Shown: piece by piece, positions 1 through 61,463 of the stretch
How the letters are laid out: each line of letters starts with the position of its first letter
Position numbering within the stretch: the stretch's first letter is position 1
DNA from: Morchella semilibera
Taxonomy: Eukaryota; Ascomycota; Pezizomycetes; Pezizales; Morchellaceae
Assembly: GCA_009192285.1 (NCBI GenBank)
Contig: WBVU01000011.1
Coordinates: forward strand, 558,001-622,000
Direction of reading: 5' to 3'
Length of the DNA: 64,000 nucleotides
Notes under the pieces: model-generated
What the model saw: the letters and a program-made list of their open reading frames with translations, nothing else
The model's database searches: none
Told to the model about the DNA's origin: nothing
Program-made: the position numbers and the translations under genes

Positions 1-855
1 CTTTTTCTCTTCGTTCGACCTGACTACGGTACATCCATACGGCCTATTACGCGCTCTAGAGGCTCCCCAGTGCTAAATGATCCATAGAATAGTACAAGTA
101 AGGCGCAAAACTACATGTAATATCCCGAGGATGCGCGTACCCGAAACAAAACCCTATACGTCCATCCAGACGCCCAGGTGTTATTTTTGGCTGCGCATAG
201 TCCACCAACTAGAGACAGAACATGGAAGCCAAACACACAAACGAGTGATATCGCGTGATTAGATGCTGCAACCAATACGGGTTTCTCTAGCAATTGATAG
301 GAGTAGGTGTAGCTTCTGCAATTATCCCTTAATTGGACGGATGGAAGTGGTTAGATTCACGACCTGGACCGTGCACCCTTTAGTAAAGGATTTATATGGT
401 AAGTAACAACAACAACAGAACCAAACAAGGGTTTCCAACAGTTGCCACACGGGGGTTAATATTAAATTTGACAACTTTCATCTCTAAGGGATAGAATATC
501 TCAGTGGCTAATAGCTCAGTAGCTCGAACCGCAAGCGTACACTACAGTGTGCTACTACTCTACGTTTGGACCATGGACAGAGCGCTAGGTTATGTTGCAA
601 CTGTGATACGAAAGATTGTCGTAATATGAGGAAAACCAACCTGGGGGGAGACGGCACCGGAGCTTTCCACTGATATCTAACAATGATTGTCATCTTTAAC
701 GAGAGCTGAGCTATGTTCACCACGTTACAGAACTTGAACTCACTAACCCCCTTTCCGAAAAACAGCTACCGTACCCCTCTAGAGTCCAAGCCTCAATGAT
801 GTCTTTAGATCAAAACAAGGGAGGCATCCTTCTAATATATAAATCATCCTAGGTA

Positions 856-887
856 GGGGGGTTTGGGGGGTTTGGGGGGTTTGGGGG
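856..887 (+). repeat. G6T3 tandem tract, candidate G-quadruplex
   Basis: Four guanine runs (6, 6, 6 and 5 long) are separated by three TTT spacers. This meets the usual definition of a parallel G-quadruplex-forming sequence. It resembles no standard fungal telomere unit (TTAGGG) and lies far from any gene I can assign, so its role, if any, is unknown. Confidence 0.7.
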
Positions 888-3800
888 TTATGTCAGTGGT
901 CAGGCGAGTGTTAACTATTTATGTTCCTCTATCAACGCAGCGATATGTTTGATTTCCCCCTAATAGGCTTTGGTTACTGCTGGTCGTTATTAGGTGAAAC
1001 ATGACCCTAACCCTATGACTCCATGATCCACCTTAATTTCAAAATACACCCGGAACTTAGCGAATATAGATACGAGCTGCGCACATCCGGTCAGAGTATA
1101 CTCAAAAGAATAACCTTAATAATATTTACCGCGGACGCCGCCGGGTGTAAGCTTACAAGTAGAGTAGGAGTGGTTGTGGCGTGGCCCAAGCGCCAACCAT
1201 TTCACTCGGTTCCCATTGAGGGACTGAGTTACGGACTGAGCAGCCCAGGGTTGAATATTGATGGGATAACTGTTTATAAACAAGATGAAGTGAACTTAAA
1301 TCTAGGTCAATAGAATTCCATCTGGTCGAGAGTGAATTTGCTTCTATTCTTGCTGTGGATATTACCAGGCTGTGGCAGAATACATATATTGATCCCGGAT
1401 CCCCCGATATTGGAACATTGCGCCAGCAATTCTCTTTATCCTCCTAGTCAGGCTTCAGTAAACGATGAGCTGGGTTGACGATATTTTAAGCTCGAGCATC
1501 CCATTGAGATCCTGGCTATTTGGACCTGGACACGATAGTGGTGTTGATCGGTTTGAGGGCTGGGTTTTGGTTTTGAAAGCGATGAAGATACTGGGGCAGG
1601 AAGCTTGGGAACAGACCCCGTGAGATGTACATCTGATATGTAAGTGTTGACTTCACGGAGAAATATCTCAGTATTTGCTAACTTTCCGATACCATAGATT
1701 GTACTTCTTACTACCCACCCTTATGTCCGAGTCTGAGCATTGAAGAGGTGCTTACAGCTGCGCGCGCTGCAGGACAACGCTATAGATCTGAAATGGTTAG
1801 GAACATAGATGAGCAAATTGCGGCCCAGGATTTTCCCAAAATATAGACATAGAGTTTTACTACAAACTTCGATATAACGACCGGATTTCAAGTGGGTGTT
1901 GGTATGCATGTATGAATTATCAAGTGGGTGTTGGTCTGTACTCTGGATACTGTGTAATGTACGAATTTCATGTACTTTATGCCTTTGGTGTAACCGTGAT
2001 AACCTTATGCATCACTGGAGGTCAAATCCAGGTCATTCAAACGGACCTTTCCACTTCCTGTAAAGACAAACGGACAAGTGAAAACGAGACCTATGAATTA
2101 TAATTGATAGCTAGGCATGGGACCCGCTGCCGACCTGAAATGTCGCAGATCCAAAAGTCATTACCGCTGGAACTCATATTCAGGTTCTATCCTCCCCTAA
2201 GTGATACCTAGCACCAACACCGATGCAAGATGCAATGGAAGCCGTTTGGATGCCTGCCTGCCTATCTGCCATCTGCAGGTACATGTACGACCGGCCTAGG
2301 ATAGGATGGAGGGCGATAAGATCACTACCCTAGTAGTTGCACATGATGTGTGTTCTACTAATGGCCAATGGCTCGTAGACCCACAGATAGGCCAAGATCT
2401 AAGCCACAGAGCACATCGGTTGATTATGACGTTTCTTCCTTTTGACAACTGGTACCGTTCCTCTTTCTCCTGATGATCATCCACGTGGACCCCTAAGGAG
2501 TTCGGCTCTTGAAATAAGAGCTGCATCCCCATGGCCACGTTGTATCTATGCGATTATTTGACCGGGTAATAATGAATGATGGCTGGTTAGGCCGAGTCGT
2601 GTTTGCATAGCAACGGTCATCATTGCAGGGGAGTAAACCTGATTTTTTTGAATATGGATAGGTGCTTGACTGATCGCCGTCGATGGTGGACAGTCCTCTC
2701 TGAGACGTTTAACTACCTTTCAAGGCCGGCCTCTGCAATCAGTGCAAGAATGGTTTTATATCGACCTTAACATAGCCGGCGAGGCGATCGTAAAGACGAA
2801 ACAACCCATATCGGTGATCTATTTATCTAGATTCACCCCGCCAGCGGAGTGAGCCCGGATATCCCGGGATGACGTGCAGTAGCGACCCATGAATTCTAAG
2901 AGTGTAGAGTAGCTAAAAAGCTAAGTAAACCCTGGATTATTTTCTCGCTTATATTACCACCGGCCTCAATATTTTATACCAGATTTAGAACTAGCAAACC
3001 TAGCACCACCGGTATGATTCCTCCCAAGTGATGGGCTCCTATTTGAAGGTCCATAAAGTGGTGAATATCGAGAGCCATAAAGTAGCTAGACCTATTATCT
3101 AAAATCTCTTAGAGTTTTGTCCACATAGGCGGATATGTAGCCACCCGATGAAATATACTTCAATTGAAGTACGTGCACTTAGTAGATGCTAGAGTCCTTA
3201 TATATATAAATAGTAATAAACTGAAAGAGATAGTGAGTAAAATATTCGCCATCCTCATTCCAAGGGAGATGAATAGATCTTTTTGAACTTGCATCGAGTG
3301 ATACCTAATGATCATTAGACAGGAAATAAGTAGAAGATAATTTAAATTAATTTCGGGGCATAGAGGTAACACTGTACCTGGCACTCAAATTTGACACAAC
3401 CAAGTATAGATGTAGATATGGTATTGGTGAGTAGCCAAGGTTCTAGTTGTCAAAGGTATCAACAGTGGTGCTTGTTTCTGCAAGCAGCACCGAAAGAACT
3501 TGGCGAACAAAACCAGCCCAACCGTCAAACTTTATGCCAAAGTCAAATAACTTAAACGGGACGATGTGATACGTCTCCATGTGGAATACAGACCCTAAGA
3601 AAGAGATTATTTGGCCCTTTCCGGCTATCTCGCCTTAGCTAAATAAAAAAGAGGCAATAAGAACCTTTGACTCCGAATGGAACCCACCGAGTAAACCTAC
3701 ACAGAGATGCAGTAAGATTTGGAATATTGTACGCATCACTAAGGATGTGGTTTCAGCTTGAGTGGTCATGAGGCAGTAACTCGCTCGCTGGTCTGCCATA

Positions 3801-3975: not shown

Positions 3976-6490
3976 CTGGGTCGGGCCGCACGTTGTACAG
4001 CGACGATCTGTATGGAGAGATGGTAAAGCTATGGGGTTTTGTCAGCTGAGGTCCTATCTGGTCGATTAAGCGAAGCATCATAACCTACAATATGATAAAG
4101 CACAACACCTGGGTCCACCGTCTATCCGTACTCACTCAGACTGTTATTAGCACCAAACCACCTAAGAATACACTAAAGTGTATCCCCAAACAGATATATG
4201 GCCCAACAGTTTCTATAAATAATAGGTATCCTTAAGAGGTCGGAGGGTACGCAGTTATTGAACCACCTAGGCTACTGTCAACCTTGATGCGCCGGGTCAT
4301 CCCCTCAAGTACCATGAGTGAAGATCCTAATCTTAGACTCTGAGCCAATACAAAGTATGAATGCCCTAAGCTGTCATATACCTTCGCCAATGATGGGTCG
4401 CTTGGATGAGAACTGCTTTCAAGGGGCCAATTGATCATCGTGACATGTTAAATGGGTAACAGTGACAGCGAGCATACACGTTTCTCTAAAGCTTTCGTTT
4501 TAGTCCGTACTCCTAGCTATGTAACATTTAATCATATCGTACACACATCTTCGATGCTGAACACGTGTCCAGAACTACATGTATATGTAGCTAACACCAA
4601 ACCTCCATTTTCTCTATATAACCCTGGCCGCTCCCTCTTAAGCCTTCCCAGCTACATACTATCTCCGCCATGTATCTCCATACACTACAGTACTATCTAA
4701 TACATTCTCGACTATATAATTAGGAGACATCAACTCTACCCTCCATCATAAGTTACCCCTCTAGCATAATAAACCAATTCGTGCTAACAATTACTCTTTG
4801 TCTACGAGTGAGGGCCCCTTGCAGAACAATTCTGCACTAATGAGTACATGTATGTTTGGACCGTTGGTTCAATTATCGATCAAGATGTCGATCTAGATTG
4901 GCGATCCCCCAGGAACCATCGGTTTCGGACCCACAGGATGCTCGCCGATGGTACTGATACCTTTTCTCATCAGGTGACCAAGGAGCCGAGTGACTTTTTA
5001 TGATACAAGCAGCAACTCCACCACCCACTCCCCCTATTCAGTTACAAATTTAGTTGCAGTGACCTGACACTGAAGTTATTAGGTTACAGCGTTATCCCTG
5101 AAAACCTAGGCGATGGGTCAATGGGACCTCCTATCAAGGTTTCATTAACCAGATCTGAAACGCTCCGAAAAGTTAAGATCCAAATTCTAAAATTATGTTC
5201 CCACCCATTCAACACGTCACGCTGTCACGTGATTCAGGCAATCTTAGAACAAACCAAATCAGTGGCAAGCGACATGGGCAAGAACTGGTATCTAACGTCA
5301 ACTCATCCGATTCACGAACCTGTGCTGGGGTCAGGCTGGGTTCTGATGGTCGGAACCATCACGGCCAAATAAATAATTTGTAGCGACAACAACAAATGGT
5401 CCAATAACTAAAGCGGCAGAAATTCACATCAAGAGGACAGGGACAAAGGGAAGTGAAAAAAGGAAACATTACACAAGCGGTGCAAACAGTACCTACATAC
5501 ACATGTGCTTGTAGTGCACACCTTTTGCCAACGAAACGAAACGAGGCTCAAAAGGAGAATTTTCAAAATCAGCAAACAGATCAATCATTTACATAGTTTC
5601 TCAGCCTTGTGAAAAGCGAAGATCAGGAGGGGGAAAATGCGTCACCGAACGAAAACCGAAGGAACCCCCCCGCCCCTCTCTTGTTTCTTATCGTTCTCAC
5701 CATGCCCCCCCTCTCCCCCTTTATGGCCACGTCAGAAAACTGTCACTCTGCATCAATTGAAAACCGAGAGGGCCGCCTATGGAATCTGGGGAATGGGAAA
5801 AAAAAATTGTATTACAGAGATGGCCCAATGCTCTTGTCTTTGTACCACTCGGTAACATTCGCGCAAGGGTTACACACCCGAAACAAGGTTATTTGCCACA
5901 GACATTAACAGGCATACACGCTCAACATTAACACTACCAATTACCCACATAGGGGATTCGGAAAGGTGAACCATCTCACTCCGTATATTCATTTTATTCT
6001 CGGCCGAAGTCAGTCGCCTAGGTATATACATCCCATTCATCCATTGTCCCGTCAAACCATCATTCAACGTCAACTATTTCCAGCCTCATCTAGCCACTCA
6101 TCCATAATCCATTCGACCAGTCAACCAGTCAATCAATCAACCCAACCCTCGCCCACCACACTCGCCTGCTTTATATATTCAAACTTGAGTTTATTTGTAT
6201 GTACTTACTTTCTTTACGCCCAGCTGTTCTCCGTCAACATGCAAAGCATACGAAAGGTATTAAGGCTTTCTTCGACGGCAACGAATTTAAGAAAAAACGA
6301 AGTGAAGTGGTGGTAGTGTGTTCAAAACATAGACAGTTTAAAAGGTAGGCGGAGGGTAATGATGATGGTGGTGATGAGGGTATTGCGAGATGGAGATAGA
6401 AGAAAGCGAAAGCCCGACGACGACGACATCAAGAAAAGAAAAAGGCGCAACGAAAGAAAAAACACAAGACATACGTATCAGTCTGATTTG

Positions 6491-7855: not shown

Positions 7856-10111
7856 TCATCGTCCGTACGGCCCGCCACTGCGCACAGATATCCCACCGCC
7901 GTGGAGCGCGTGGTGCGACATATTCATGCCGCCGGCACCTGGCGAACTCATATCGGGGTTCTAACACTCATGTTAGCACTCTATTCTCCTTCCGCAACAT
8001 GACACGGCCGCCCAATCCAACCCAGACTCTTTCGGCCACCAAAGTGAATAATGGACCTCCTCCTCTCTTTCTTTCATTGGCAGCAACCACCCCGCAGGAG
8101 CAAGAAAAGAGGCAGAGGCCAATGCACCAACCCGTCCCGCCCACCCGCGCACCAACGGAAACAACAAAAAAGAGGCAAAGCGGGATATCAAGCCCCAGGG
8201 GGAGCTCATTACCTTCTTCCGCTTCTTCTTCTTCTTTTCCTCACTCCACGCCTCTCTTCCACTACCGCCCATATCCCGGCCTCCACTTCCTGCTCCTGGA
8301 CCATTACCTCCTCCACCACCTCCTCTGTCTCCTCCACCGTTTCCATTATTCACCTGGGTGGCGTCCTCATCGTCTTCTCCGTATCCTTCGTAACTGGCAT
8401 CATCATACCTTCTTCGCTTCTTGCGCTTTGGCCTGGTGTCATCCCCGCCTGCAGACACAGACGACAGGCCGCCCGGCGTCGAGCCGTTCACATGTGGAGT
8501 TCCGACCGCAACCGCAGGGGTAGTGGCGGCCGTCGCATGCGGAGCTTTCCGGCGCTCATCTTCAAGTCCCAGGATCGAGACATCAAACTGGTTGGGCCGA
8601 ACAGAGAAGCACACACATGTTAGTCATTGTTGTTCCAAACCAACCAACCCAACACCCTCCCCCCATCCCCTCCCTATCCGGTAGGAAAGAAAGAAAGAAA
8701 GTAAAAGGTGCAATATTCTTCTGCACCCCCCACAAAGGGGGAAAGAAATTGGGCGGTACAAGTCAAGGGATACACACCCCAGGTATATCGCCCCTCGTCA
8801 TAGTTAACCCCTTCCGCAGCTTATTCATATCCAGTCCTTTGCTCATCTCCTTCCCATGAACGTTCTGATTGTACCATTCCTCCTCCGGCCACATGAGCAG
8901 CGTGCTCAAGAAACCCGCCTTATTCGCATCTCCGGCAGCGTCGCCGGCGGAATTGGGGTCCGTCTGCGCAGCCTTTGTCACGACAACGTTCTTGCCCGGC
9001 AGGTCATTGATGAAGCCCTTGTAGCTTTTACGCAGCTTGTTCTTCACACCCGTCGCCGGATTGAACCGGGCCACTGAATCCGCAATAGGTCGCAGGCCGT
9101 AGAGAGCGAGAAGGTCGTTTGTGAGGTCTGGGTACGAAGGTTCATGCGCTGTTGCGTGTTAACCCTCGTTCTTTTCTCTTTTGTGCCTGTGTATTTTTTT
9201 TATTGTATTTTTTTTTTACGCACCTACCGCGACGGGGGGGGGGGGGGGGGGGGATAGAAAGGGAAAGAGGAAGAGAGGGGGGGTAGGGTTAACCAACGTT
9301 TCGGACAGACCAGATAGTATGTTGACACATCTGGCTGAGAGAGGACTTCGTGCTCGCTAGGTATGGGGGGAGATGCATCGGGCATGTATCCCTGCGACAT
9401 TGAATTCCGGTAACGGAGGGCGGGGGCGGTAGTGGGAGCGTTCCTGTCATAGGGGCTACTCATCCGCCGCCTCTTGTGGGACTTTTCATCTTCCTCCTCC
9501 ATGTTGGTGTCGCCGTCAGTGTCTTCGTGCGACGTGGTTGGGGGCACTGTGCCCGCAGCCGAGCTTGTCGGGGTGAGGAGCGTGGAATTAGGTGCTGTTA
9601 TTGTTGTTGTGGCTGTGGATGCTATGGGGTGTTGTTGCTGCTGCTGCCGCGACGAAGACGACGATATGCTAGTTGTGTTGCTTGGGAAAAAATTGGTGGA
9701 GGAGGAGGAGGATGAAGAAGAGTTGAAGGACGAGGCGTTGTTGAACAGCGGAGACGAGTGTGGCGGTGAGACGCCTGCGGCTACCGAGGAATGGTATTTT
9801 GTGGTATTTGTTGCTGCTGCTGCTGCTGTTGGGAGTGATGTAGATGATGATGATGGTGGTAATGAAGGAGTGGTCGTGGTGGTGGTAGTGGTAGTGTTGC
9901 TTGGGCCAGCATGGTTGGCGGCGGACATGTAGGAAGGGGGGGACAGAGGAGTGGTAGGCTGCTGCTGCTGCTGCTGCTGCTGGTGGTTGTGGTGGTTGTG
10001 GTGGTGCTGATGGTTGTGGTGGTTGTGGTTGTGGTGTTGCTGGTGTTCCAGGGGAGGCGGAGGATGAGGGTGGTGGTGGTGGTGGTGGTTATGGGAATAG
10101 AGGGTTGTCAT
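7856..10111 (-). CDS. MED19: Mediator complex subunit 19 (Med19/Rox3)
   Basis: Subunit of the Mediator head module, linking activators to RNA polymerase II in the nucleus. Exons, in transcript order: 10111-9298, 9148-8778, 8587-8213, 7960-7856 (554 aa; introns of 149, 190 and 252 bp, long for this window). The conserved core starts near residue 264 with YYLVCPK. It continues across intron 1 with DLLALYGLRPIADSVARF, KNKLRKSYKGFI, MWPEEEWYNQNVHGKE and a short Gly/Arg tail, the Med19 order in fungi. Residues 1-260 are His-, Gln-, Thr- and Ser-rich low complexity with an acidic patch and KRRR. Exon 3 carries KKRRR and poly-Lys tracts. The upstream frame offers only non-ATG codons, so the ATG at 10111 is taken. 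Intron 1 contains C20 on the sense strand. Family assignment is firm; the N-terminal start is less certain. Confidence 0.88.
9234..9253 (+). repeat. G20 homopolymer inside MED19 intron 1
   Basis: Twenty consecutive G on the + strand, read as C20 in the MED19 pre-mRNA, between the exon 1 donor (9297) and the exon 2 acceptor (9149). It is a likely site of length polymorphism or assembly error, but sits within the intron and does not touch the reading frame. Confidence 0.85.
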
Positions 10112-10251
10112 ACGCGACGTCGGTGTCGGGGGAGGTGTCTGCTGGGACGGGGAACTGATTTTGGCGGCTGGTTTTTCCTTTCTTGGTTGGCGATGGGAAC
10201 ACTCCAACGTCAATCAACCAGAAAAAGAGCGAGAGCAAAAGAGAGACACAC

Positions 10252-10291
10252 AGAGAGAGAGAGACAGAGAGAGGGAGAGAGAGAGAGAGAG
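10252..10291 (+). repeat. (GA)n microsatellite
   Basis: A GA repeat interrupted by single C and GG bases, about 140 bp upstream of the MED19 start. On the transcript strand it is a pyrimidine tract, as is common in fungal promoters and 5' UTRs. Confidence 0.85.
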
Positions 10292-10462
10292 TCGTAAAAT
10301 AGATTTAGTAGAACCGGAAAGAAATCCTTTCTATCTTCCCAAAGAATAAAAAAAAAAAGGTTGTTATTAGAATTCCTCCCTGCGCTTAATTCCCTTTGAG
10401 ACGTAGGGGGAGAACTAGACCTTCCGTCGAACCTGTTCTCTCGATGGCTGGATGGATGGAAG

Positions 10463-10498
10463 GAATGAATGAAGTGAATGAATGAATGAATGAATGAG
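10463..10498 (+). repeat. (GAAT)n microsatellite
   Basis: Near-perfect tetranucleotide repeat of GAAT/ATGA units upstream of MED19, broken once by AGTG. Confidence 0.8.
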
Positions 10499-10663
10499 TG
10501 GATGGACGAACGGGGTAGAGTAGCTAAGAGGGGGAAGACTAAGAGGGGGAAGAAAAAAAAAGGGAACGTGAAGGGGAAACGGTTGATACAATATGATGCA
10601 CACACGACACAAAAATAAAAAAAAGTTGGTCGTGAGGGTCAAAAAGGCTGTTGCTGCTGAGGT

Positions 10664-10730
10664 TGCTGCTGCTGCTGCTACTGCTGCTGCTGCTGCTACT
10701 GCTGCTGCTGCTGCTGCTGCTGCTCTGCTG
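10664..10730 (+). repeat. (CTG)n repeat, CAG on the MED19 strand
   Basis: About 22 CTG-type units with CTA interruptions, read as CAG with TAG interruptions on the MED19 strand. The TAG units close the Gln frame, so as it stands it is not a poly-Gln exon; the Ser (AGC/AGT) and Ala/Val frames stay open. It most likely lies in the 5' UTR or promoter. Confidence 0.8.
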
Positions 10731-11219
10731 CCGATCGTAGACTATGTGGATCGTTGCTAGGTAATGATGGTTCGCGTCGATGGGGCGATGATGTCGAACC
10801 CTTAATTTTTTTTTCTTCCCTTTCCTTCCCTTTACCTTTCCTTTGGCAGGAGGGGCTGACTGTTTCGAAACGAAACAGAGAAATATATATATATATAAAG
10901 GGAAGTCCTTTCTATTCTCAACAATGGGAGATAGAATTCAGTGGATATGCTTCCCCCTCCAGAACAAGGTGTGTGAGTGTGAGCGTGTGTGTGACAGAAC
11001 AACCGATAAAATCAAAAAAAGATATGGTGGAAGACAATCAATGATAATAAAAAAAAATAACCCGACCGTCCGTTTTTTCTAGGTTATTGTACGGTACAGA
11101 AGGTATCTAAGTATAGATGTATATGTATGGATGGATGAATGGTGATGTTTCTCCTCAGTGCTCCTCTTCTCCTACGGGGTTTTGGGTTGTGGAGACAGAT
11201 GGCAGCAGTGGGGATGACC

Positions 11220-12176: not shown

Positions 12177-12324
12177 GGACTGACCGTCTGGACTTGGGGT
12201 AGGGTCAGACAGGCGGCGGATACATGTAGGGTATATGGGGTAGGGTAGGTGGTGTGGTGGTGGCCCCGACATATGGGTACGGACAGGAGCAGGAGTACTA
12301 GAGGAAAGGAAGCTATAACAACAA

Positions 12325-12345
12325 TACATGTAGCTGCTACATGTA
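12325..12345. repeat. Pair of TACATGTA palindromes
   Basis: Two copies of the octamer begin 13 bp apart at 12325 and 12338. The second lies in a 12-bp perfect palindrome (GCTACATGTAGC). They belong to the dispersed palindrome family described in the findings. Confidence 0.8.
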
Positions 12346-12901: not shown

Positions 12902-14216
12902 CACTACGCGTTTCCTTTTTTTTTTTTTTCTTTTATTCCTTCCTCCTTCTCGATGAAACCCGCCCGCGATGGTGATGACGGGCAGCACAGGGCAGCAGGG
13001 CAGGGCAGGACAGGGCAGGGCAGACAGACAGACAGGGCAGCACCCACATCCACCCACCCCACCCACCCACCCACAAAAAAAGGAAAAAAAAAAGAAAAAA
13101 AAAGTGCGGCGAGACGAGACCGGACTCACTCCCCCATGCGGGTCACCAAGGGGGGGGGGATGGATGTAGGGTATCATATCATGGGTTAAGTGACGCCGCT
13201 TACACCCTGGCGCGACCCACCGCGCCTACAGCCATAGATAGGGTGGTACATCCCCCCCCCCCGACGTCGAGACGAACAAACCTTTTCGCATCATCATAAT
13301 ATGAGCCTCCCCACCCCGGTCCAGACCCAGAGCCTCCAGGGTCCAGATTTAGGTTGGGGGATGCGTTGTTATATACATGTAAATATTCTCTCTATCTACT
13401 AATAGGCTAGGCCGGGCTAGATGCTCCACATCCATCCATCCATCCACCCATCCATCCATCCCTAATTCTAGGCTCGCTCTGCTCTGCTTCCAATATAAAT
13501 AGATACATTGTCGCGAGCAGCCAACTTCCGCGCGCGTGGGTCACGGGTGGGTGGGTGGTGGGAGGCAAAGAGGCAAAAGGCAAAGGCAAAGAGGGAATGG
13601 GAAAAGGGAAAGGGAAAGGGAAAAGGGAAAAGGGAAGTTCCTCAGAAGGGTGGTGGGAGGGAACCTGCAGAGAAAGATGAGTGGATGGATTGGGATGGGA
13701 TGTGGGATGTGGGCCAGGAAGGCAGGCAGAAGAGGGAAGAGGTGCCTGGGACTAAGCTGCTCTTGAAGAAGTTCTTTTCTGCCTCCGCCCTGTTTTTCCT
13801 TGACTGTCTCTCCACCATCCATCCATCCAAATAATAATAATAATACATGTAGATAATTGAGGGTCTGCACTGCATGTATATACACGGGCCCATGATCTGT
13901 ATCGCTGCTGTAATATTCTATTCTACATTCCCCCAGTAGGTATCCATTCTTCTCTTCTCATCTCCAGAATAGAATTCGCCAACTTCGGCAGCTCCCGACA
14001 AGACAAAAACGTCAATGATGACATCATCAAAGCCCCCCCCACCCCAAACCCCAACCAGCTTAGCGCGTGTGCCAATGATCCACAGCACATCAAAACACAT
14101 CATCACATCACATCACATCTCAGCTCTTTCTAAATATTATCATGAGCTACAACATACCTCTCTCTCCCCCCCACCCGTAAACCACAACCCACAACCCACA
14201 ACCCATAACCCACAAG

Positions 14217-18365: not shown

Positions 18366-18379
18366 TACATGTACATGTA
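18366..18379. repeat. Two overlapping TACATGTA copies
   Basis: TACATGTACATGTA: two octamers share two bases, giving a 14-bp perfect palindrome. Confidence 0.85.
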
Positions 18380-24511: not shown

Positions 24512-24545
24512 TACATGTACCCAAGTACCTATGTAGGTACATGTA
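24512..24545. repeat. Pair of TACATGTA palindromes
   Basis: Two copies begin at 24512 and 24538, embedded in alternating GTACCTA/TAGGTAC-type sequence that can pair with itself. Confidence 0.75.
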
Positions 24546-45428: not shown

Positions 45429-45460
45429 TACATACATGTATGTAACTACATGTACATGTA
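45429..45460. repeat. Triple TACATGTA with 16-bp perfect palindrome
   Basis: Octamers start at 45433, 45447 and 45453. Bases 45429-45444 (TACATACATGTATGTA) are a perfect 16-bp palindrome. The cluster is about 250 bp upstream of the DAP1 start codon. Confidence 0.8.
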
Positions 45461-46058
45461 CTTCTACATATGGCGCGAGAAGGCATAGGGGGTGGGTGGG
45501 TGTGTAAACCTCAGAGGAATTTTTTTTGTATGGGAATTAGACCGTTAGGCTAGGCACTAGTACAATTATGGGGGTAGATCTCCCAATTTCTATAGACTGG
45601 TTGGCTGCAAACACTGGGGTTTGCACACCTACCCTCCATAGCTTCTCGAGCCATACTTCATGTAATGTTGGAGAACGACCGCTGAAAATGGTACGGAGTT
45701 TCGCCCCGAGATGATAATATGAATGTAAATACTTATTTACATTATAAACAACTACTTCATTCGATCATGTCGACAAATCACTACGGGTAATATATACTAT
45801 AGTGTACTAATTAGGAAACACTTAAGCTTCCTTTTCAACTGACCGGTGTGTATGCGCTGTGGGCGCACTCACACCCAATCGCAGGGTGCTCACAAGAAAC
45901 AACATTGTGGAAGCCTTTATGGAAGAGTTAATGGGAGGTCAATAAAGGCATATCCACGAACTACACGCGGTACTAGATCCAGCTTGACCTCGAGCCAGGC
46001 AAGAAAGATCCTAAGAGCTGGCTAATTCTCAGAGCGCCGAGCGCCTTTCTACATACTC

Positions 46059-46665
46059 TACATGTATGCATGCAAGCTGGATTTAGGGAAAATCGTCAAT
46101 GCGGCTAGCTAGCTTACGCTGCGCAACGTGGATACTACATGTACGTAGTGTGGATACCCCCAAATTAAAGTCTACTCGTAGGGTGCCGGTAGTCTACATT
46201 TAGTGAATGCACTCGAATCCGGCTCCCCCTCCTTTGCGGACCTAAGTACGTGTGCTGTGGAGCTCAGGGAAGCAAGCAGAGGGCCAAGAAACATGAAACA
46301 TCTGTAAAGGAGGTCCTTCACGCGTACGTACGGGTACTTTCTCGGACAAATAATATCGAACCTCAAGCAAATTAAGAGAACATGTTCCCATACTTTCGAC
46401 ACAAACCGTGAGAAATGTACCTAAAGTTCGAAACGTACATGTAGGTATACCGCAATATAAACTACATGTATAGATTTTGAGTCAAATATACCATGAGACC
46501 ATGCACGTACCATCTAGAAGGTTAAACCACCCATATTGCGGAGCCAAGCTCATCAGCCAGACAAAGAGCGGGCTAGTGTGTATCGCTTTAATCTGTATGT
46601 ATTCTATAGGATATATACATACATGTATGTGCGTGTATATATCTGGATATACGCAGATACATGTA
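46059..46665. repeat. Cluster of six TACATGTA palindromes
   Basis: Copies begin at 46059, 46136, 46436, 46463, 46620 and 46658 within about 600 bp of non-coding DNA. Confidence 0.8.
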
Positions 46666-47373: not shown

Positions 47374-48019
47374 TACATGTATGTACGTGTTTGCGGCCCG
47401 CGCCGGCTAGATTGCATACACATAAGTACATGTAATTCTGAGGTATCACATCTCGATAGGGACCAAGTTAATCCGATACCTACAGAATGAAAAAACAAGG
47501 TGAAATCACTACTATAGGACAACGGGATTTAGCGACGAATACTGAATTAAACTGACACTGGAAGAATACTATACCAATACCGTATTCTTACCGCATTACT
47601 AGCATGTTGATATATGGGAATACCGTAGTGATCCCACCCCTTTTTGTACTGCATGTGAAAGGTACATCTATCTATATCGATAATCATAAGGCCGTCAGTC
47701 TCATATGGTAAAAAAAAAAAGTATGTGTACTATGGTTTAGAACTTGATTTAGAACTAACGCATAGGCTATAGCTAGCGTGCGTAGTAATTGCAGGCTATT
47801 AGCAACGCAGCGTTAACACTCGGTTTTGATACATGTATATGCTCGAATCCGCGAATGATTTAGATACATGTAAGTAGACATACTTGTGTATATGTATAAT
47901 TTGTAGCTAATACAATCAATTAACAGAATAAGTATAAAGATACATGTACACAGGATTCTCAGAAGAGATCCTGTGAAGTCCCATCATTCCAAACACTTGT
48001 ACACTGATGCATACATGTA
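47374..48019. repeat. Cluster of six TACATGTA palindromes downstream of HSP78
   Basis: Copies begin at 47374, 47427, 47830, 47865, 47941 and 48012. The last lies about 130 bp beyond the HSP78 stop codon. Confidence 0.8.
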
Positions 48020-48151: not shown

Positions 48152-50766
48152 TCATGCTTCAAGTCGTAACTCGTCCGCCTTAACCTCGCTATTTACCACT
48201 ACCTCCAACTCCTCGCCACCTTCCTTGACCTTGACTTCGGCAATATCATTACTTCGTATCTCGCCACGAATCAGTTTAACCGCGAGCGGGTTTAGAAGCT
48301 TCTTGCTGATGAGCCTATTCAAAGGCCTAGCCCCGTATCGGTGGTCGTAACCTTTCGTGCTCAACCACTCTTTTGCCTCTTGCTCTACATCTAGTATGAT
48401 CCTTCGATCCACCAATCTTTTTTGTACGTCTTTCAAACGTATATCAACGATATCCCTGATAGCCTCCCTAGAAAGTCTCTGAAACACAATGAACTCGTCG
48501 ATTCGATTCAAAAACTCTGGGGGGTAGGCGTGCTGAACAATATCCATGATTTTTGACTTCGTCTCATGGGTAATAGGACCTTCAGGTGTATCGGCACTAA
48601 TTAAAACATCTTGACCAAGGTTGGACGTTAATACTATTATTGTAGAGCGGAAGTCAACTTTGCGGCCTTGTGCATCGGTGAGGAAACCTTCGTCAAGGAC
48701 TTGAAGAAGCAGCGATGAAATGTCCTTGTGAGCCTTTTGGCAGTTAGAATATCGTATGTTTTTAGTGAAAGAGTATGGCTATAAGAGTCCTACCTTTTCA
48801 AACTCGTCAAACAGTAGAACCGCGTATGGCTTCCTCCTCACGGCTTCCGTCAGCTGTCCGGCATCCTCATACCCAACATATCCTGCCGGGCTCCCAATAA
48901 GCCTGCTAACTGTATGCTTCTCCTGAAACTCGCTCATGTCAAACCTTATGACAGCGCTCTCAGTGAAAAATAAAAATTCAGCCATCCGCTTGCACAATTC
49001 TGTTTTACCAACGCCTGTGGGGCCGAGGAACATAAAACTAGCGGTAGGGCGGTTATCACTCGCCAAACCAGCCCGTTGAAGCCGTACAGCATCTGCTACA
49101 GCTCCAAGTGCTTCATCTTGACCTTTGACTGACATTCTCAGGGTATCTTCCATATGAATCAACTTCTCGATATCCCCAGACATCAACTTGGTTGTAGGAA
49201 TTCCAGTAACTCTCGACACAACACGGGATATATCCTCAGAATCAACCGAGTCGTGCAAAAGAGACCCTTTTGAAGTGGAATCGCCATCTTTTGGAAGTTT
49301 TGCTTCTAGACGCGGGATTGCTGAGTACTGAAACTCACTAGCTTTACCAAAATTCCCTTCTCTCCTGTACTTCTCGAGCTCCAGTCTTGCTTTTTCGAGT
49401 TCCTCTTTAGTACTCTTGACCTCTGCAAGTTCTGCCTTTTCCTTCTCCCATAATTTGATAAGTTCATTAACCTTTTCCTGCTTTTCCTTCAATGTTTCTT
49501 CGAGTTTTGCTTTCCGCTCCTTTGAGACAGCATCTTTTTCTTTCCGGAGCGACTCAAGTTCGATCTGAATCGTCAGAATCGCGCGATCAAGCTCTTGTAT
49601 CTCATCAGGGCGAGATTCCTGTTGAAGTCTAAGCGCAGATGCGGCTTCATCTACTAAATCGATGGCCTTATCGGGGAGGAAACGGTCAGTGATATATCTA
49701 TTTGACAAGGTCGCCGCAGCTACTAAAGCGTTGTCGGTGATCCTAACACCATGATGAACTTCATATCGATCCTTGATTCTATCATTGAAATCAGTGAGAT
49801 GTTACGTTAACACCAGGGAACCGATAGCTCACCCTCGGAGAATTGTGATTGTATCTTGAACTGTTGGCTCATTGACAAGTATAGGCTGAAACCTTCTGGC
49901 CAGTGCTACATCCTTCTCGATCTGACGATATTCATTCAGTGTTGTTGCGCCGCAACATTGAAGTTCACCTCGACTAAGCTGGGGTTTGAGAAGATTTGAA
50001 GCATCAACTGATCCCTCAGTCTTTCCGAGACCTAAAAGTGTATGAAGTTCGTCGATGAAAAGGATGACATTTCCGCGCGCTTCAGTTACTTCTTTGAGAA
50101 CACCCTATATTACAGTTAACACCTCTAAGGGAAATTTCAGAGTTCATTAATACCTTTAATCTTTCCTCGAAATCCCCTCTAAATTTTGCTCCTGCAATTA
50201 ACTGCCCTAGGTCTAAGCTGATGACTCTTTTATCTTTCATACTCTCAGGAACGTCTCCGCGAACTATTCTCTGGGCAAGCCCCTCGAGAATTGCGGTTTT
50301 TCCCGTCCCAGCAGAGCCTATAAGGACAGGATTGTTCTTAGTCCGTCGGGAAAGAACCTGGATTGTCCGCTTAATCTCAGCATCACGGCCAATGACTGGA
50401 TCTAATTTTCCGTCTCTTGCGCGAGCTGTCAAATCAGTCCCAAACTGTTCAAGGGCTGACTTTTCTTCTGAGATCACACGTTAGAACATTTGTAAAAACC
50501 GAGTCTTAGTTGAGTTGGTAAATAATATTCACTACAATGTACTTACCGTCACCACCAAGGTTCATCCGGTGTGTCCCACCAGGTGGATGTACAGGACCCC
50601 TTCCATCCGCATAACCTCTGATGCAAACTGCAGGGAATAAATTTACTTGTGGAACTGAAAGTATCCTAACTAAAGGTAGCCGTAATCGGAGACTCGAGTT
50701 GTTACGAAGCGTTGGTTTGAGTATTGGACGAAAAGCGACACCGGAAATGCGTGAGCGTGAAAGCAT
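48152..50766 (-). CDS. HSP78: Mitochondrial Hsp78 (ClpB-type AAA+ disaggregase)
   Basis: Matrix chaperone that rescues aggregated proteins together with mtHsp70. Exons 50766-50547, 50467-50154, 50104-49833, 49778-48794, 48733-48152 (790 aa; introns of 79, 49, 54 and 60 bp). The first 55 residues are Arg/Ser/Leu-rich without acids, as in a presequence, ending near IRGYADG. There is no Clp-N domain, which is typical of Hsp78 versus cytosolic Hsp104. AAA-1 has Walker A GSAGTGKT (124-131) and Walker [14 protein letters not shown] long charged coiled-coil middle domain follows ([18 protein letters not shown] and on). AAA-2 has Walker A GPTGVGKT (about 521-528) and Walker [14 protein letters not shown]. 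The C-terminal part keeps [12 protein letters not shown] and [10 protein letters not shown]. Length matches the family. The ATG is the first in frame. Confidence 0.93.
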
Positions 50767-52197
50767 TTTGATTCAAGATTTATGTTACGAAGTAGATCCT
50801 AATTCAATCGCTTTAGGAGAAGGAGACCCTCTATAAATATTCTACAAAATATTATGTTCAACCCCAACGTTTCTACCGCCTTCTAGAAATATTAGTATAA
50901 GTGTGTTTGGAAAATATATCGTCATCATGTTACCCGGCTATGAAGGTACACACGTGATCCGGTTAACGCATTCTCTATTCTCGAGTTGTCATAGGGCAAT
51001 TGAGGACGTCAATACTAATCCCAATACAGCCAGAGGGCGGGTAGGATAGGTCACACTTTATCACTCGAGGAGGGTTAGTCTATTAATTAATCCTATAGGG
51101 AAAGTTAGAGCCAAAGATCTGCGGTGCGCCACAAAGTTACACGAGTTTCCAGGGTTTAACTACCTCCGGTGAACCTATTCGCCTTTCAAGCCTGGAATGT
51201 CTGGTCAGCGGCATTCAATGTGGCACCGAGTTGACTTATTTCCTCGGCATCTAACGGTTTTATCACTTCGCTGGTACATAAGATAGGCTACAGGATGTTT
51301 TTATAGGTATTTTAATCAGCTCTTCCCAAGAGCAAATATTGCAGAGCCTATGTGTTGTCCATACGCTAACTGTGCAGTTAGGTAAAGTTTAAAAATAAAC
51401 TCCAATTATCAAATTCCATCAAAGCTATGGCAGCGTATGATCACCATCGATCGCAGGTGAATTCACAGCCTTATGAGGAGGTGTTTCACCGGCTTTTATC
51501 ACACCCCAATAGCAGTAGACACCAGTGCCGGGGTTCGAGAGGGGAACCAAGCTACTTTAGTTGAACCTTGGTGAACTCTAGTGATACACACATACACCTA
51601 ACTGTTACTGATGCTGTGAGGCTGCATAGTAACTTGCAAATGCTACTGCTGACCCCGGTAGCACTTTCCCGGACGGATGGCCTTCCGAGCGTCAGCTGTA
51701 TGTATGTACATACAAGCACAGCCCTGTCGGAAAAGGGCGTAGCAGCCGAGGATGTATCATGTTATTGTCAACACGTCGCCAAGATGATCACGAACGAGGA
51801 ACCCTGTGAATTGGAGCGTTAGTTTTTAATCTGAAGAAAAGAGAGGTTTAAAACCGAGTGAAGGCGACTTTACTGATACAGCCTGAATGAAGGCTGCTTC
51901 CAAATCTACTCAATCTTTGTTCTTCTCAGTCTTCAATCGATCTGCTTGTGGACTAGGTCGGTTATGAAACCGCTGCGAGAATACATGAACCTAGAGTACC
52001 TACATACCTATGTACATGTAGCTTCTTTGGATCAACAGACAGTGTATAAAAATAGGGAGCCACTAATCCCAGAACCCTCTTTACCAAGCCTTTATTGAGG
52101 AGTCTGTCAGACAACACGAAGGGGCTGGGAAAAATAAGATATTACAAGCACAATCCAGCTCTTAGAAGTTAGTGGTGATTTCTTGTATCATCCGACG
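50767..52197. other. Divergent spacer, HSP78/Zn2Cys6 gene C
   Basis: 1.4 kb between start codons. A TATA-like element precedes gene C. TACATGTA occurs at 52013. I did not recognise a heat-shock element for HSP78. No additional gene is supported. Confidence 0.5.
52045..52052 (+). promoter_or_regulatory. TATA-like element of Zn2Cys6 gene C
   Basis: TATAAAAA lies 146 bp upstream of the ATG at 52198, with a TACATGTA octamer 25 bp further upstream. Confidence 0.4.
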
Positions 52198-53427: not shown

Positions 53428-54481
53428 GCTATAGGGGAAGAGAGTAATGACTATAGTACGAAGGTCTTAGATTAGTTTTTGGTTTTTCCGAATGGTTTGG
53501 GTTTGACAATAATTTCTTCATTAGTTTTAGGGATGACATTACCTCTCCTTCGTCAACTTTGTTTTGGATTATGAAAGTTTTAAAACCTCGGACCGTCTCG
53601 CACATAGCTATATTCTGGGAGTGATTCTGATCGAGTGACAAAGCATGAAGTTGTCAGAGAGTCCGTGTGGTAATACATGTGAGGAGGAGGTAGAGGGTGT
53701 CAAAGTGGGATTATACCTACATGTAGTTCTTATACTTACTGGGGTCTTCATTTTTTTCCTGAACTTGGCTTATACAATCGTGTCCATGACCTCCCCCCCC
53801 CCCCAAAGAACCCGAAAATGTTCCGAAATGCCTCCGATTATGTGGCCGCTTATGTGACCAAGGAGCTTTAGCGCTCCTGTGCTGGAATGGAACTACATGT
53901 TAATGGTCCAGCTATTCCAGTACTAAATCTATCCCAATATAGCAGTTTTACGCAATACGCAGAGGAACTACATTAGCCTATGGATGTAGGGACTTTACGG
54001 CAATTCAAGATGTAATCCAAAATTTGGGTTTGGAGTGTAAAATATTAGATATATGAGTAGGAAGGGAAGATTGAACACGACGTTAATATCTTCTACTAAC
54101 TACAAAATACATGTAAAGTATGGTCTCAAGGATTGCCCACAGCTGCAGCTCTAGGTTGATCACGACCGCAAAACTCCAATTCAAATAGAATAAAGTTCTA
54201 ATTATATGCATCGGTTCGATACGAGCACTGTTTTATAGAACTATCCCACTTTGCTCGGTTCATCAAACCACACTTTTTTTTTCGGCAAGTACTTTGAGTT
54301 TATAAATGTCTTGATGTGCAACGCGAAACCTCACTAAAATACACTGTAACCAAACACAACCTCCTATCAGAGCTCTTTAAACAAAACTAACCCAATTTCA
54401 TATCGTACTAACGCTATAATGATATCTCTGTAGTCCTTGAAACGAGATTGACTATGCCTCAAAGCCAATGTGCGAAATAAA
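53428..54481. other. Convergent spacer, Zn2Cys6 C/VPH1
   Basis: 1.05 kb between 3' ends. TACATGTA at 53718 and 54108, and a short C-run near 53790-53805. No gene seen. Confidence 0.6.
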
Positions 54482-57336
54482 CTATTCGGATTCTTCCAAC
54501 AGCAGCTTAAAGCTAAAAGGCTCGAAAGCAATGCCATCCCCAATGAAAAATTTGCTCTGCGAGATGTTAGTAACCATATTAATTGGATGTTAAGACTATT
54601 CTAGAACATACCATAGCCTCAACCCAATGTAACCTCAAACTATGCAACATAGCACTAGTTCCTTCCATAATTACCAACACAACGATTGTGCAAATAAACC
54701 AGAACCCGAACAAAATGACGATCGCGATAACACCGATGGTACCAGTGAATCCAAAGGCGATGGCCAAGGTCATAGACCAAAGAACGATGGAGAGCTGTGC
54801 ATGAGCGAGGGAAAGCGCCCACAGTCGAAGGTAAGACGCGGTATGAGAGATACAGTTCAGGCAGAATTCTAAATTTCTGATTAGTAAAGGCCCAAGTATG
54901 TAACATTTTAGAAGCTTACCAATAGTGTGAATAACCTGATGGATCATAACTTCACTAAATTCGAACTCTTCCTCTTCCTTCATTTCTTCTGCGATGAGTA
55001 CATGGCCAGAGCCATCAGTGTCTACACTCTCCCTCCCTCTTTCTGCAATATCATTATCGTCGTCATCATCATCTAGGGCGCTAACCCTTGAGACCTGGCC
55101 CAGTCCTTGATATCCAGCTGCACGATGTTTATTGTGCTCCCATCTTAGATATAGGGGCTTGAGTAATAACATCCATGGGACACAAACAAGTGCTATCAAT
55201 AGAAGCATAACCTGCACCCCTGCCTGCCCGGGGTAAAGCTGTTCTGGAACATTTCCGGGGGAAAGGAACATGTAAATAAGCATGTTCAGCAAACTAGGCG
55301 GCTGTTGCTCCCGAGCAGGCCAGTCAACAGTCCACTTATAAATGATGCACATAACCAAGTACCCAAAAATGGACTGGAAGAAAATCATCCCAGGGATGAA
55401 ATTTCCCCAGGTATCGATTCTTGATTTAAAGTACCGGTGGTTATATTGTGATAGACATAAAGAGTAGGTCATCTTGAGTGGTGATACTCATTAGTAACGA
55501 TCGCAACACAAGGAACACTAAACTCACATGAGCCCAACCCAGTATAATACTGAGTTTCATCTTAAGACTGTTCGTAAATAATAAACTGTTTTCTGCTCCA
55601 TGCCACTGCCAATCAAGACCAAACGGATACGCATAACCCAATTTCTTAGCCGCCTCGATGTTGTCACCCTCCATAAAGTGAGAGGGGTATTCCCAAGCAC
55701 TTTCAAACAAAGCGAGTGGTTTAGAAAAGATATCATTATAGATGAGACCCGTATAGATTGAAAAGATTCCCATGAGCAGCATGATGTATCGTCCGAAGAA
55801 AGCCATATCGAAAAGCTCAAAGATCTTCTTTCCCTGGAGAGATTTTTCGTTCCATACCATAGCAAGGGCAGCGAGTGTCAAGATGATTCCGTGACCGATG
55901 TCACCGAACATGACAGCGAAAAGGAACGGGAAGGTTACTATAGTCGCCAGGCCTGGGTTGACCTCGCGGTATTTCGCAACACCGTAGGCGTCAACGATAG
56001 TCTGGAATGCTAGAGTAAATTTATTCGTTTTGTGGAAAGTTGGCGGGGTCTTCGTTGTCTTAAGTTCATTCAAGATGCTTGGCACTTGTAATCCCGCACG
56101 AACCGTGACCTCCCGCAAACGCTCTTGAATCTTCGGTAAAACATTCGTTGGCAGCCAACCCTCAGCGATCAAACATTTGCGTGCAGAATCATAAATGAAT
56201 AGATTCAATGTCTGATAAATGGCCTTTTCCTTCTTAATAACCACCATCCAGCTTGCCAAGTTCTGCGCGATTGTCCTCAATTCCGCGTTCAAAGTGTTCT
56301 TAGTATTTTGCAGGACAGATTGATGATCGTCTATACGTCTATTGATATCGTGGAGCTGGTCACGACGAAGGTTGGTATCCTCGTCAACCGCATAAAGATC
56401 GGCCCCGAGAGATTCCGAAATCTTGCGGATCTTGGATAGGATTTCCTTGCCATGAGCAAAAATAACAAAAACATTCTTGTCAACGTTCTCGTTAGTTGCT
56501 GGGTCAGTGATTGGCTCATCAATCTCAGATTGATTCATGTAAAGATTGCCTCTCAATGTTCTCCAAAGAATCCTTTCAAATGCTGAAATTCTATCACGGC
56601 GAATTACGCCAGCGACGAAACCAATATTCATAGTCTGAAAGCTCATCTCTCCCTGATTTCCGTATTGAGCTGGGGTTGACTGCTCAACATCTTCAAGAAG
56701 AGGAGCAGAGGGCTCGTCCGTTGAACCTCGGCGAATTTCGTCCGCTTGGCCATGAGCGCGATCAAAGAAACCACCAGCCTCCCGCAATACCCATCTATGC
56801 TCTATAAGCTCAACCCATCCTTTCTGGAGTGTTTCGTAAGATCCATTTAGTTGGCTGATTCTAGCTTCCAAGGCCTCTGCACGCTCGGCAAGAAAATCAA
56901 TTTCTGAAGAGCTTGGAGCCGCAGTAAGGGTTTCATTGTCCTGGACAGGGCGGACCGGAACAGAGTTTTTCTCCATCTGAGAAGCGAAGTAACCTAAGAG
57001 GCTGTTAACAACTTACCGCGACTCCTATCAGAGTGTTTAGAAGGACATACGAAGTTGACGCTCAACATTGTCCAATCTCCTAATCTCTTTGGTAAAGGTC
57101 CGTTGAAAGGCAGAGGTTTCCGCGTTGAGCTATCACAATCATAAAGATTAGCATTCTTGAATTTGCTTTCCCAACCACCTCCTTCCCAGAAATTTAGATA
57201 TGAGAGAGCTTACGTCGCGGAACTGGAGCAAGCCCACTTCTCCCAACTCACTCACAGTTTCCCTCCCAATATCAGTCGCTACGTACAATTGTACGAGCGA
57301 CATTTCCGAAGAGCGGAACAAAGTGTCTTGGCCCAT
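54482..57336 (-). CDS. VPH1: V-type H+-ATPase subunit a (Vph1-like)
   Basis: Large membrane subunit of the V0 sector, forming the proton half-channels of the vacuolar/endosomal proton pump. Exons 57336-57214, 57129-57051, 56993-55528, 55472-54920, 54868-54612, 54556-54482 (850 aa; introns of 84, 57, 55, 51 and 55 bp). The N-terminal cytosolic half opens with [20 protein letters not shown] and continues [31 protein letters not shown] and [12 protein letters not shown]. The membrane half shows [49 protein letters not shown] and [20 protein letters not shown], the last carrying the essential proton-pathway arginine. It ends [20 protein letters not shown]. An acidic Asp run separates two membrane segments. 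Length equals the yeast protein. One a-type gene often serves both Vph1 and Stv1 roles in filamentous fungi. It is divergent from RPT3, 382 bp apart. Confidence 0.94.
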
Positions 57337-59608: not shown

Positions 59609-60970
59609 ATGTTACAGCTCTTTTCAAAGCCTACAATCACAATAGTTTCTACTGCTAAAAGGTCGATATGCGATAAGGTTAATGCTTGTGCAGCCTTTTC
59701 TTCCTCAGTGCCCGTGGGCTTAAGGTTGCTTCAGCGTCCACGAGTTCATCCTCGTTTCTTTCAACAAAGTGTATTTAAACAGTATGCTACCAAGTCAAGA
59801 AGAAAAGACGTCAATCCTATCCGCAAATCAACAAATCCAGAAAAATCAGACCTCGTAGCTCAGACAGTAAACAAAAATTTGCCAGAAGCGGGCAACCAAC
59901 CCCGATTGCTTGATCGCCTGAAAGCCAAGGGTGCCATTTCTGACCTCGAGGCTCCCCCGAGTTTATCCCATGTACTTACTCATACATTCACTCCTCAATT
60001 GGGTCAGGCTGACCGCAATATTGAATAGTTTCAACGCCTTTTCGCTCCATTTGTTTTCACAGTAGCCATCTGCGGTGGTTCTTATTACTTTGCCCAAACC
60101 TGGGTACCAGCACCAGTGGAATCCCGTCTTTTTCCGACACTTCCACAATCGTTTACAACTGTTGCAACGATCATTGCAGCCAATTGTGCAATATTTCTGG
60201 CGTGGAAGGTCCCTCTCCCAATATCATGGCGAATTCTCAACAGGTACTTCATATCTGTGCCGGCAGTGCCGTATAGTCTTAGCATTATTGGAAATGTCTT
60301 TTCGCATCAAAAATTAACTCATTTGGGAATGAATATGTTTGTAATAAACACCCGGGTACCCTAAATTTTACTAAATCTGTTGATCTTGCTGATACCTATA
60401 CCAAATACATTTGACAGGTGCTGTACATTTTCGGAACCTCCCGTAGGTTACCTCTCTACTGATCATGAATGATAGGAAGTAAATCTAATGGCTTTATAGT
60501 TTGTGACCAAATAGGCCGTGGAAACTTCTTGGCTCTTTATTTTTCGGCAGGAGCAGTATCTTCGTTTTCTTCTCTTGCATTCAATGTCCTTCTGGCTAGA
60601 TTCCACGTTTTTGCTCTTGGAGCGTCAGGCGCAATCAGTGGTGTCATCGGCGCGTATACTTATTTCAACCCAGAGTGCGTAAATATCTCTGATCTGCTTT
60701 ACTTTGGTTCACCCCCTAACAACAACATTCTCCTCTAGACGTGAATTGTATCTCGTTCTCTTGCCATTCATGAGCTTTAAAGCATACCAATTTGTAAGTG
60801 GCATGGCTTTAATTGAGGTCCTTGGCATTATCAGAGGATGGACAGTAGTCGATCATATGGCGCATCTATCAGGATTGCTTTGGGGGGTAGCAGTTGCCTA
60901 TTGGAAAGATCTGGAGCTCAAAAAGAAACGAGAGCTTGCCCGAAAAAATGCTCGCTGGCTTTCATGGTGA
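59609..60970 (+). CDS. PCP1: Mitochondrial rhomboid protease Pcp1/Rbd1
   Basis: Inner-membrane serine protease (PARL family); in yeast it processes Mgm1 and Ccp1. Exons 59609-59971, 60029-60340, 60418-60442, 60500-60674, 60739-60970 (368 aa; introns of 57, 77, 57 and 64 bp). The N-terminus is basic and Ser-rich, a matrix-targeting presequence. The rhomboid core shows THLGMNMFVLYIFGTSL, the catalytic-serine motif GASGAISG (Ser276) and the catalytic histidine in VVDHMAHLSG (His334). Exon 3 is a 25-nt microexon encoding part of a transmembrane helix. Intron 1 is inferred because an in-frame TAG at 60026-60028 would otherwise end the protein before the membrane domain. It has GT, a CTGAC branch site and TAG, and splicing restores frame. 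The start is the ATG at 59609. Confidence 0.9.
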
Positions 60971-61463
60971 TTGACTAGAGATGCATTTCTTTTATATCTG
61001 TTGTAGTGATTCCGGTAGGGTGGATATTGTATAATAAAGTTCAGGTTTTTTCTTTCTCTCCCTTTCTTCCGCAGCCCCCATTTTATAGGTTTACATGTAT
61101 GATGGTGAGACATGTTTCTAAACTGTATGTTAAATTAAATTATAATGGAAGGTATAAGATAATTATGAGAATATTTCGCGCAAAAGGATCAAACCTGGCA
61201 CTTGCCATACCAGATAGGGCATTGAGCTGATACCCCAACAGGAAACAAACGTTAATAGAGATTTTAGGCTAAGCATCAATTTTGAGAGATGCTGTTTGCT
61301 AGCAAAAAGATCCCTGCAACTAGTAATTTTGACCAAAAGTAATGGTTTCTAATGCCAAGGTATGTAACAGGTCTGCACTGTAGTTACATACCAGATTCCA
61401 TAGGGCCACATTTCTGCCCCACGCCAACCCCGCGTACAAACAGAGAGCCTAATAAGACGTTAA
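60971..61463. other. Spacer between PCP1 and TMA17
   Basis: 490 bp between the PCP1 stop and the TMA17 start. TACATGTA at 61092 lies about 120 bp after the PCP1 stop, probably in its 3' UTR. No further gene is seen. Confidence 0.55.

Follow-up and report, generated by a model that had tools for sequence, protein, structure and literature searches.

Why does a single palindromic octamer, TACATGTA, recur throughout the non-coding DNA of a morel? The question is raised by a 64-kb stretch of the Morchella semilibera genome (C10:558001-622000 in the 23-contig assembly; "the window" is this whole stretch). The first-pass annotation of the window had claimed at least 53 copies of TACATGTA between 112 and 61099, about 50 times chance, where about one copy was expected. 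The exact count is 53, with the first copy at 112-119 and the last at 61092-61099. Under Markov models of the window, 0.92 (order 1), 1.57 (order 2) and 2.98 (order 3) copies are expected, so that the excess is approximately 58-, 34- and 18-fold, respectively. Among the 256 palindromic octamers, the runners-up in the window were TATATATA and ATATATAT, with 16 and 12 copies. As argued below, we predict from the sequence that TACATGTA is recognised throughout the genome by a homodimeric DNA-binding protein, and we give this reading a probability of about 0.5.

The excess is not a property of the window only. We prepared a 264-kb sample, which consists of the window, C1:1000001-1100000 and C2:1000001-1100000. 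It contains 128 copies of TACATGTA, which is 25 times the order-2 expectation, and no other 8-mer present 25 times or more reaches so high a ratio. The non-coding part of the sample (363 pieces, 189 kb) was then shuffled 20 times with local trinucleotide counts kept. The real pieces hold 127 copies, whereas the shuffles gave a mean of 6.7 and a maximum of 12, and TACATGTA showed the largest deviation from expectation among the 256 palindromic octamers. Thus, in the comparison with local di- and trinucleotide composition that had been suggested in the first-pass annotation, the octamer is far above the composition level. Simple composition as a cause is excluded by the Markov models and the local shuffles. 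In the whole genome (56,756,124 bases in 23 contigs), TACATGTA occurs 22,206 times and the reversed word 3,723 times; about 1,060 copies of TACATGTA are expected by arithmetic from a GC content of 47.3% (PMC7014384). The observed total corresponds to approximately two copies per gene on average. Per Mb, the genome has 391 copies and the window 828, and the C1 and C2 blocks have 410 and 340, respectively. Because its density is twice that of the genome, the window is a rich patch for TACATGTA. The octamer excess is real and genome-wide.

The assembly contains doubled DNA. In the parts compared, contig C9 (2,071,371 bases) doubles C10 (2,071,177 bases): approximately 39 kb were compared (window 1-29035 and 39036-49035), and the identity was 99.99-100% with one gap. 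Because the compared stretches are near-identical, C9 is of no use for polymorphism against the window. C12 and C13, and likewise C21 and C22, share match coordinates. Therefore, the genome total of octamers counts some DNA twice; the densities should be little changed by this. The published genome size of 56.7 Mb may include redundant scaffolds.

The enrichment is that of the exact word. Genome-wide, 60,359 words are within one mismatch of TACATGTA; the exact word accounts for 22,206 of these, and its 24 one-change neighbours average about 1,590 copies each. For the reversed word used as a control, the neighbours average about 1,750 as compared with 3,723. The pattern TACNNGTA occurs 37,035 times, and its 15 words other than TACATGTA average about 990. 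In the non-coding sample, the ratio of observed to expected copies is 14.8 for the octamer itself, 1.49 at a distance of one change and 1.04 at two. The one-change neighbours are somewhat raised. The mean of the distance-1 ratio over all 256 palindromes is 1.03 and TACATGTA ranks 11th; similar ratios were obtained for ATGTACAT (1.56), TATATATA (1.53) and TGCATGCA (1.47), and six further palindromes gave 0.73-1.28.

The positions of the sites were compared with gene models from a hidden Markov model gene finder made for this analysis, which gave 60 models, 54 of them with at least 300 coding bases. The models are incomplete: a Zn_clus open reading frame at 36038-36574 was left unmodelled. No exon of the 15 models in the window contains any of its 53 sites, as the first-pass annotation had stated for the exons that it assigned. 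Five window sites (19057, 19077, 26553, 26591 and 26631) are inside unmodelled stop-to-stop frames of at least 150 amino acids, and we take these frames as non-coding. In the sample, one of the 128 sites is in a predicted exon, where 34.1 would be expected from a uniform distribution and 0.35 from exon composition; the density in exons is thus unequal to that elsewhere. No copy was found in the 93 predicted introns (9,883 bases), where 6.9 are expected at intergenic density (P 0.001). Within 300 bp of the 54 genes, 17 sites lie downstream and 5 upstream (binomial P 0.017, clustering ignored), so at most 22 of the 128 sites are this close to a predicted gene; for 33 of the 54 genes, a site lies no more than 1 kb away on at least one side. 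In the window, there are 6.9 sites per 10 kb in divergent intervals, 20.1 in convergent and 3.0 in tandem intervals. The C1 block has 6.2, 5.7 and 5.9, respectively, and the C2 block 6.6, 7.0 and 3.6. Because the convergent excess is present in the window but not in these two blocks, it is local. A gene-end signal was rejected: 17 versus 5 sites were found over all blocks, yet the convergent excess is restricted to the window. In the same 300-bp regions, the short word TGTA is biased to the sense strand behind stops (117 versus 81) and to the antisense strand before starts (56 versus 127), which perhaps reflects a UGUA element at the 3' end and a leader rich in TACA.

The surroundings of the sites are mostly unrelated to each other. 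Pieces of approximately 200 bp (about 100 bp on each side) around the 128 sites were compared at E 1e-4 with the low-complexity filter on, and similarity was found in 13 pairs of 19-54 bp. No octamer-bearing repeat copies were found among 78 matches at E 1e-8 in the sample, and in the 44 tandem-repeat rows of the window the octamer was never the unit. A tandem repeat or microsatellite, and a single dispersed repeat or miniature transposon family, were thus rejected, and the description of the sites as dispersed, neither tandem nor one transposon family, is confirmed. In contrast, the longer palindromes in which the sites were said to lie often are not a feature of the octamer. The bases adjoining it are complementary at 25% of the 128 sites, whereas 28% is expected from flank composition, and the left and right flanks vary independently. 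Therefore, the longer palindromes can be explained by chance, and long palindromes or hairpins were rejected. In the flanks, an adjoining A is avoided (11% of flanks), and NNTA continues 33% of octamer flanks; its frequency is 12% behind TA in general and 17% behind TGTA that is not part of a site. TAC or GTA words at a distance of four bases are approximately threefold in excess in the non-coding sample, also away from octamers.

The sites are clustered. In the genome, close pairs 8-38 bp apart number 2,666 as compared with 129 for the reversed pattern, and pairs exactly 10 bp apart number 606 as compared with 37 in the control, with varied spacers among the pairs listed. Overlapping pairs at 6 bp, which read TACATGTACATGTA, occur 501 times, and the reversed word gave 90. 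Among 100 listed pairs of the 2,666, all from contig C1, the spacing of 10 bp is favoured and those of 9, 11, 20 and 21 bp are not. Therefore, the 10-bp spacing is read as part of the four-base TA ladder and not as proof of cooperative binding. Helical phasing was rejected because the neighbouring and double-turn spacings are not favoured among the pairs listed.

A symmetric, exact and clustered word with independent flanks, which is nearly absent from genes, could be the trace of a homodimer under selection. In the mechanism that we propose, one abundant sequence-specific protein would bind as a symmetric homodimer, with one subunit on each TACA/TGTA half. It would bind at approximately 20,000 mostly intergenic places; full sites would count, and half-sites or sites with one change would count little. 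Two independent half-site contacts would let the flanks vary independently, as they do, although scars of transposon excision are compatible with this too. We infer that a protein reads TACATGTA and that selection keeps it. Because there is neither a promoter peak nor a consistent preference for one interval class, the role of the protein would be chromatin-organising or generally regulatory rather than that of a stage-specific activator. If the protein site is true, its reader is a major organiser of the genome of an edible mushroom. The first-pass annotation had offered three explanations, namely a protein-binding site, a self-pairing structure in 3' untranslated regions and a miniature-element footprint. 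The protein-binding site is the best supported of these, although it lacks a promoter-type position.

The same word is known from other organisms. In Phytophthora, TACATGTA is motif-1, which is located upstream of genes and is correlated with expression; its authors suggested a homodimer site, with KN homeodomain proteins as candidates (PMC3520976). It is also M93 in PMC3597505, with 4,150 copies within P. infestans promoters. Thus the octamer is the identical palindrome and is likewise very abundant. However, the morel octamer is intergenic in general, has no promoter peak at 54 genes and belongs to an ascomycete. If the protein site is true, the parallel calls for a common or a convergent cause. 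Animal Irx homeodomains prefer TACATGTA (a binding survey cited in PMC3520976), and the preferred site of Irx/TALE homeodomains is ACATGT and TACATGTA (PMC4726432), a word identical to that of the morel. All exact-word matches in the literature were on Phytophthora, and no paper was found that treats TACATGTA in a morel or any other fungus, in a search that was partly at title level and mostly without subscription journals. A wider proposal, that the octamers are a eukaryotic iterated palindrome serving as a genome-wide address system which is kept by selection, read by one chromatin-organising homodimer and independently adopted in oomycetes, seems doubtful to us.

Several observations weigh against a protein-binding site. 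The 200 bp preceding predicted starts contain only 2 sites, where 7.5 are expected (P 0.02); a promoter peak is lacking, and a promoter motif of fixed position was rejected. Outside the window, the orientation of the interval (divergent, convergent or tandem) makes little difference to the density. At least one site is present in 35 of the 51 intergenic intervals, and random scatter would give 36.1, so the sites are not apparently assigned gene by gene. About 20,000 sites are many for one factor. The half-site TACATG outside the octamer is barely raised (185 versus 138 expected), which is stricter than expected for a transcription factor. Among one-change neighbours in the non-coding sample, transitions number 88 against 46 expected and transversions 99 against 79, and this transition-rich excess may mean that many sites are decaying freely. 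Finally, the KN homeodomain model (PF05920) gave one match among seven candidates, in a search that covered this homeodomain family alone and that intron-split genes could escape. The recognition helix of this single match reads ...WFINARRR, which we take to be of the MEIS/TGIF type and not of the Irx type; the KN model detected no homeodomain of the Irx type.

The octamer might instead be made by transposons. Tc1/mariner elements duplicate TA, and excision with a two-nucleotide overhang leaves TA-CA-TG-TA if both element ends start with CA. TACATGTA would then be the excision scar of a Tc1/mariner-type transposon, and about 20,000 such events in the past would have left it at intergenic TA sites where insertion is tolerated. 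We consider this unlikely, although it is a serious rival. TA-flanked elements with CAG...CTG ends are present, namely L033, L034 and L037 (about 1.7 kb, with a DDE_3 transposase), L031, and the miniature element at 31902-32089 of the window. A two-base scar of CAG-ended elements would read exactly TACATGTA, without half-sites, and a second hit within the scar would give TACATGTACATGTA, the overlapping pair found in excess. Insertion tolerance agrees with the scarcity of sites in exons, in introns and in the 200 bp preceding genes, and also with their random spread over intergenic intervals. The identical octamer, taCATGta, is cited as a Tc1 scar in C. elegans (PMC3520976), and the pogo element, which is similar to Tc1/mariner, leaves scars of 0-4 bp (PMC9976928). 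However, the C. elegans footprint is called rare, and in the morel tens of candidate elements (at least 69 DDE_3 matches of all kinds and about 30 miniatures) stand against 22,206 octamers. The flanks differ as well: of the 10 flanks of the five elements, 9 have C after the outer TA (the inverted repeat of L031 extends into its flank, so its two flanks may not be independent), as compared with 26% of 256 octamer flanks; elements beyond these five may differ. Should the flanking G/C be part of the element ends, excision would leave a different word. One-ended scars, TACATA/TATGTA, are raised 2.0-fold, and so are TACCTA (2.2-fold) and TAGCTA (2.1-fold). The miniature family at 45469-45655 would be expected, by its ends, to leave another scar. 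Its anchor occurs 149 times as compared with 48 for the reversed control, hence approximately 100 copies; no octamer was found in the 31 bp before the anchor, where only about 2 are expected at intergenic density. The Phytophthora authors did not expect motif-1 to be a transposon footprint (PMC3520976). Thus, of the proposed miniature-element footprint, the elements with the right scar exist, but copy number and flanks do not fit. If scars are the cause, they would shape the word content of a genome far beyond any case known to us, and abundant "motifs" of other eukaryotes would need re-reading.

A mutational or repair ratchet could also make and keep an exact palindrome, for example by base modification within the site and biased mismatch repair, without any regulatory role. 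The cyanobacterial highly iterated palindrome HIP1 (GCGATCGC) is bacterial, linked to methyltransferases and occurs also within coding sequence, whereas the morel octamer is eukaryotic and almost lacking in predicted coding DNA. HIP1 is likewise one exact palindromic octamer far above expectation genome-wide, and the ratchet model was proposed for it (PMC4390886). Exactness without half-sites, high copy number and orientation-blind intergenic spread resemble such an iterated palindrome. However, a ratchet should reach introns and synonymous exon positions too, and the octamer is missing from the former and was found once in exons; we regard it as rather unlikely. Cryptic TAC/GTA simple sequence, in which the octamer would arise where tracts meet head to head, is improbable. 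In non-coding DNA, TA steps spaced by four bases are abundant (TACNTAC, GTANNTAC): TAC follows TAC at a distance of four at 3.35 times expectation, and at 3.1 times beyond 40 bp from any octamer, and the NNTA continuation of the octamer flanks points in the same direction. In contrast, local trinucleotide shuffles preserve much of the TAC richness and yet yield few copies, and between TAC and GTA only ATG is numerous (128 copies of TACATGTA as compared with 10 for the next TACNNGTA words). This reading is largely refuted by the local shuffles. An RNA-level signal, for example paired UGUA elements for 3'-end formation that are readable on both strands, would account for the downstream excess within 300 bp of genes and for the sense bias of TGTA behind stops. 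Most sites, however, lie farther from genes, and the convergent excess is found in the window only, so we think it very improbable. The self-pairing 3' structure proposed earlier is not supported, given the same window-only excess, the chance level of longer palindromes and the presence of sites throughout intergenic DNA, although 17 sites lie behind genes and 5 before them. That none of these five readings causes the octamer is hardly credible.

Table 1. Copies of the octamer TACATGTA and other features of the window (positions in the window; predicted products are from sequence).
Feature	Position	Strand	Remarks
Octamer site 1	112..119	.	exact match
Octamer site 2	2280..2287	.	exact match
Octamer site 3	4576..4583	.	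exact match
Octamer site 4	4845..4852	.	exact match
Octamer site 5	12221..12228	.	exact match
Octamer sites 6, 7	12325..12345	.	12325, 12338
Octamer site 8	13374..13381	.	
Octamer site 9	13844..13851	.	
Octamer site 10	15607..15614	.	
Octamer site 11	15753..15760	.	
Octamer sites 12, 13	18366..18379	.	18366, 18372; two-base overlap, TACATGTACATGTA
Octamer site 14	18898..18905	.	
Octamer sites 15, 16	19057..19084	.	19057, 19077; 19057 within 20-bp palindrome
Octamer site 17	20279..20286	.	
Octamer site 18	24164..24171	.	
Octamer sites 19, 20	24512..24545	.	24512, 24538
Octamer sites 21-24	26553..26683	.	26553, 26591, 26631, 26676; cluster directly behind gene-model stop at 26549
Octamer site 25	27031..27038	.	
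Octamer site 26	27579..27586	.	
Octamer site 27	27706..27713	.	
Octamer site 28	32614..32621	.	
Octamer site 29	37495..37502	.	
Octamer site 30	37938..37945	.	
Octamer site 31	41294..41301	.	
Octamer site 32	41963..41970	.	
Octamer site 33	43204..43211	.	
Octamer site 34	43951..43958	.	
Octamer sites 35-37	45433..45460	.	45433, 45447, 45453
Octamer sites 38, 39	46059..46143	.	46059, 46136
Octamer sites 40, 41	46436..46470	.	46436, 46463
Octamer sites 42, 43	46620..46665	.	46620, 46658
Octamer sites 44, 45	47374..47434	.	47374, 47427
Octamer sites 46-49	47830..48019	.	47830, 47865, 47941, 48012
Octamer site 50	52013..52020	.	
Octamer site 51	53718..53725	.	
Octamer site 52	54108..54115	.	
Octamer site 53	61092..61099	.	
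Miniature element, TA-flanked, 188 bp	31902..32089		TACAG...CTGTA ends; 33 genome match rows including own copy and doubled contigs
Miniature inverted-repeat element, TA-flanked, 187 bp	45469..45655		ends TATGG...CCATA; 86-96% identity to 38 other places, doubled contigs included (40 scored of 313 candidates)
Long (GCT)n and (TGG)n-like tracts	9224..10731		
Predicted basic helix-loop-helix protein	20953..22470	minus	PF00010, E 5.7e-7
Predicted Hsp100/Clp-type AAA protein	48152..50565	minus	
Predicted V-ATPase 116-kDa subunit	54590..57336	minus	

Some further features were observed in the same DNA. A structured RNA was looked for in the window, and there was no Rfam match at the gathering score and no tRNA. 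Within the region of the long tracts (Table 1), a minus-strand frame at 9224-10213 encodes runs of Gln, His, Ser and Thr. In the C2 block, a predicted gene (L027, C2:1084832-1087419) contains diverged tandem repeats of approximately 99 bp, whose self-matches have 72-75% identity.

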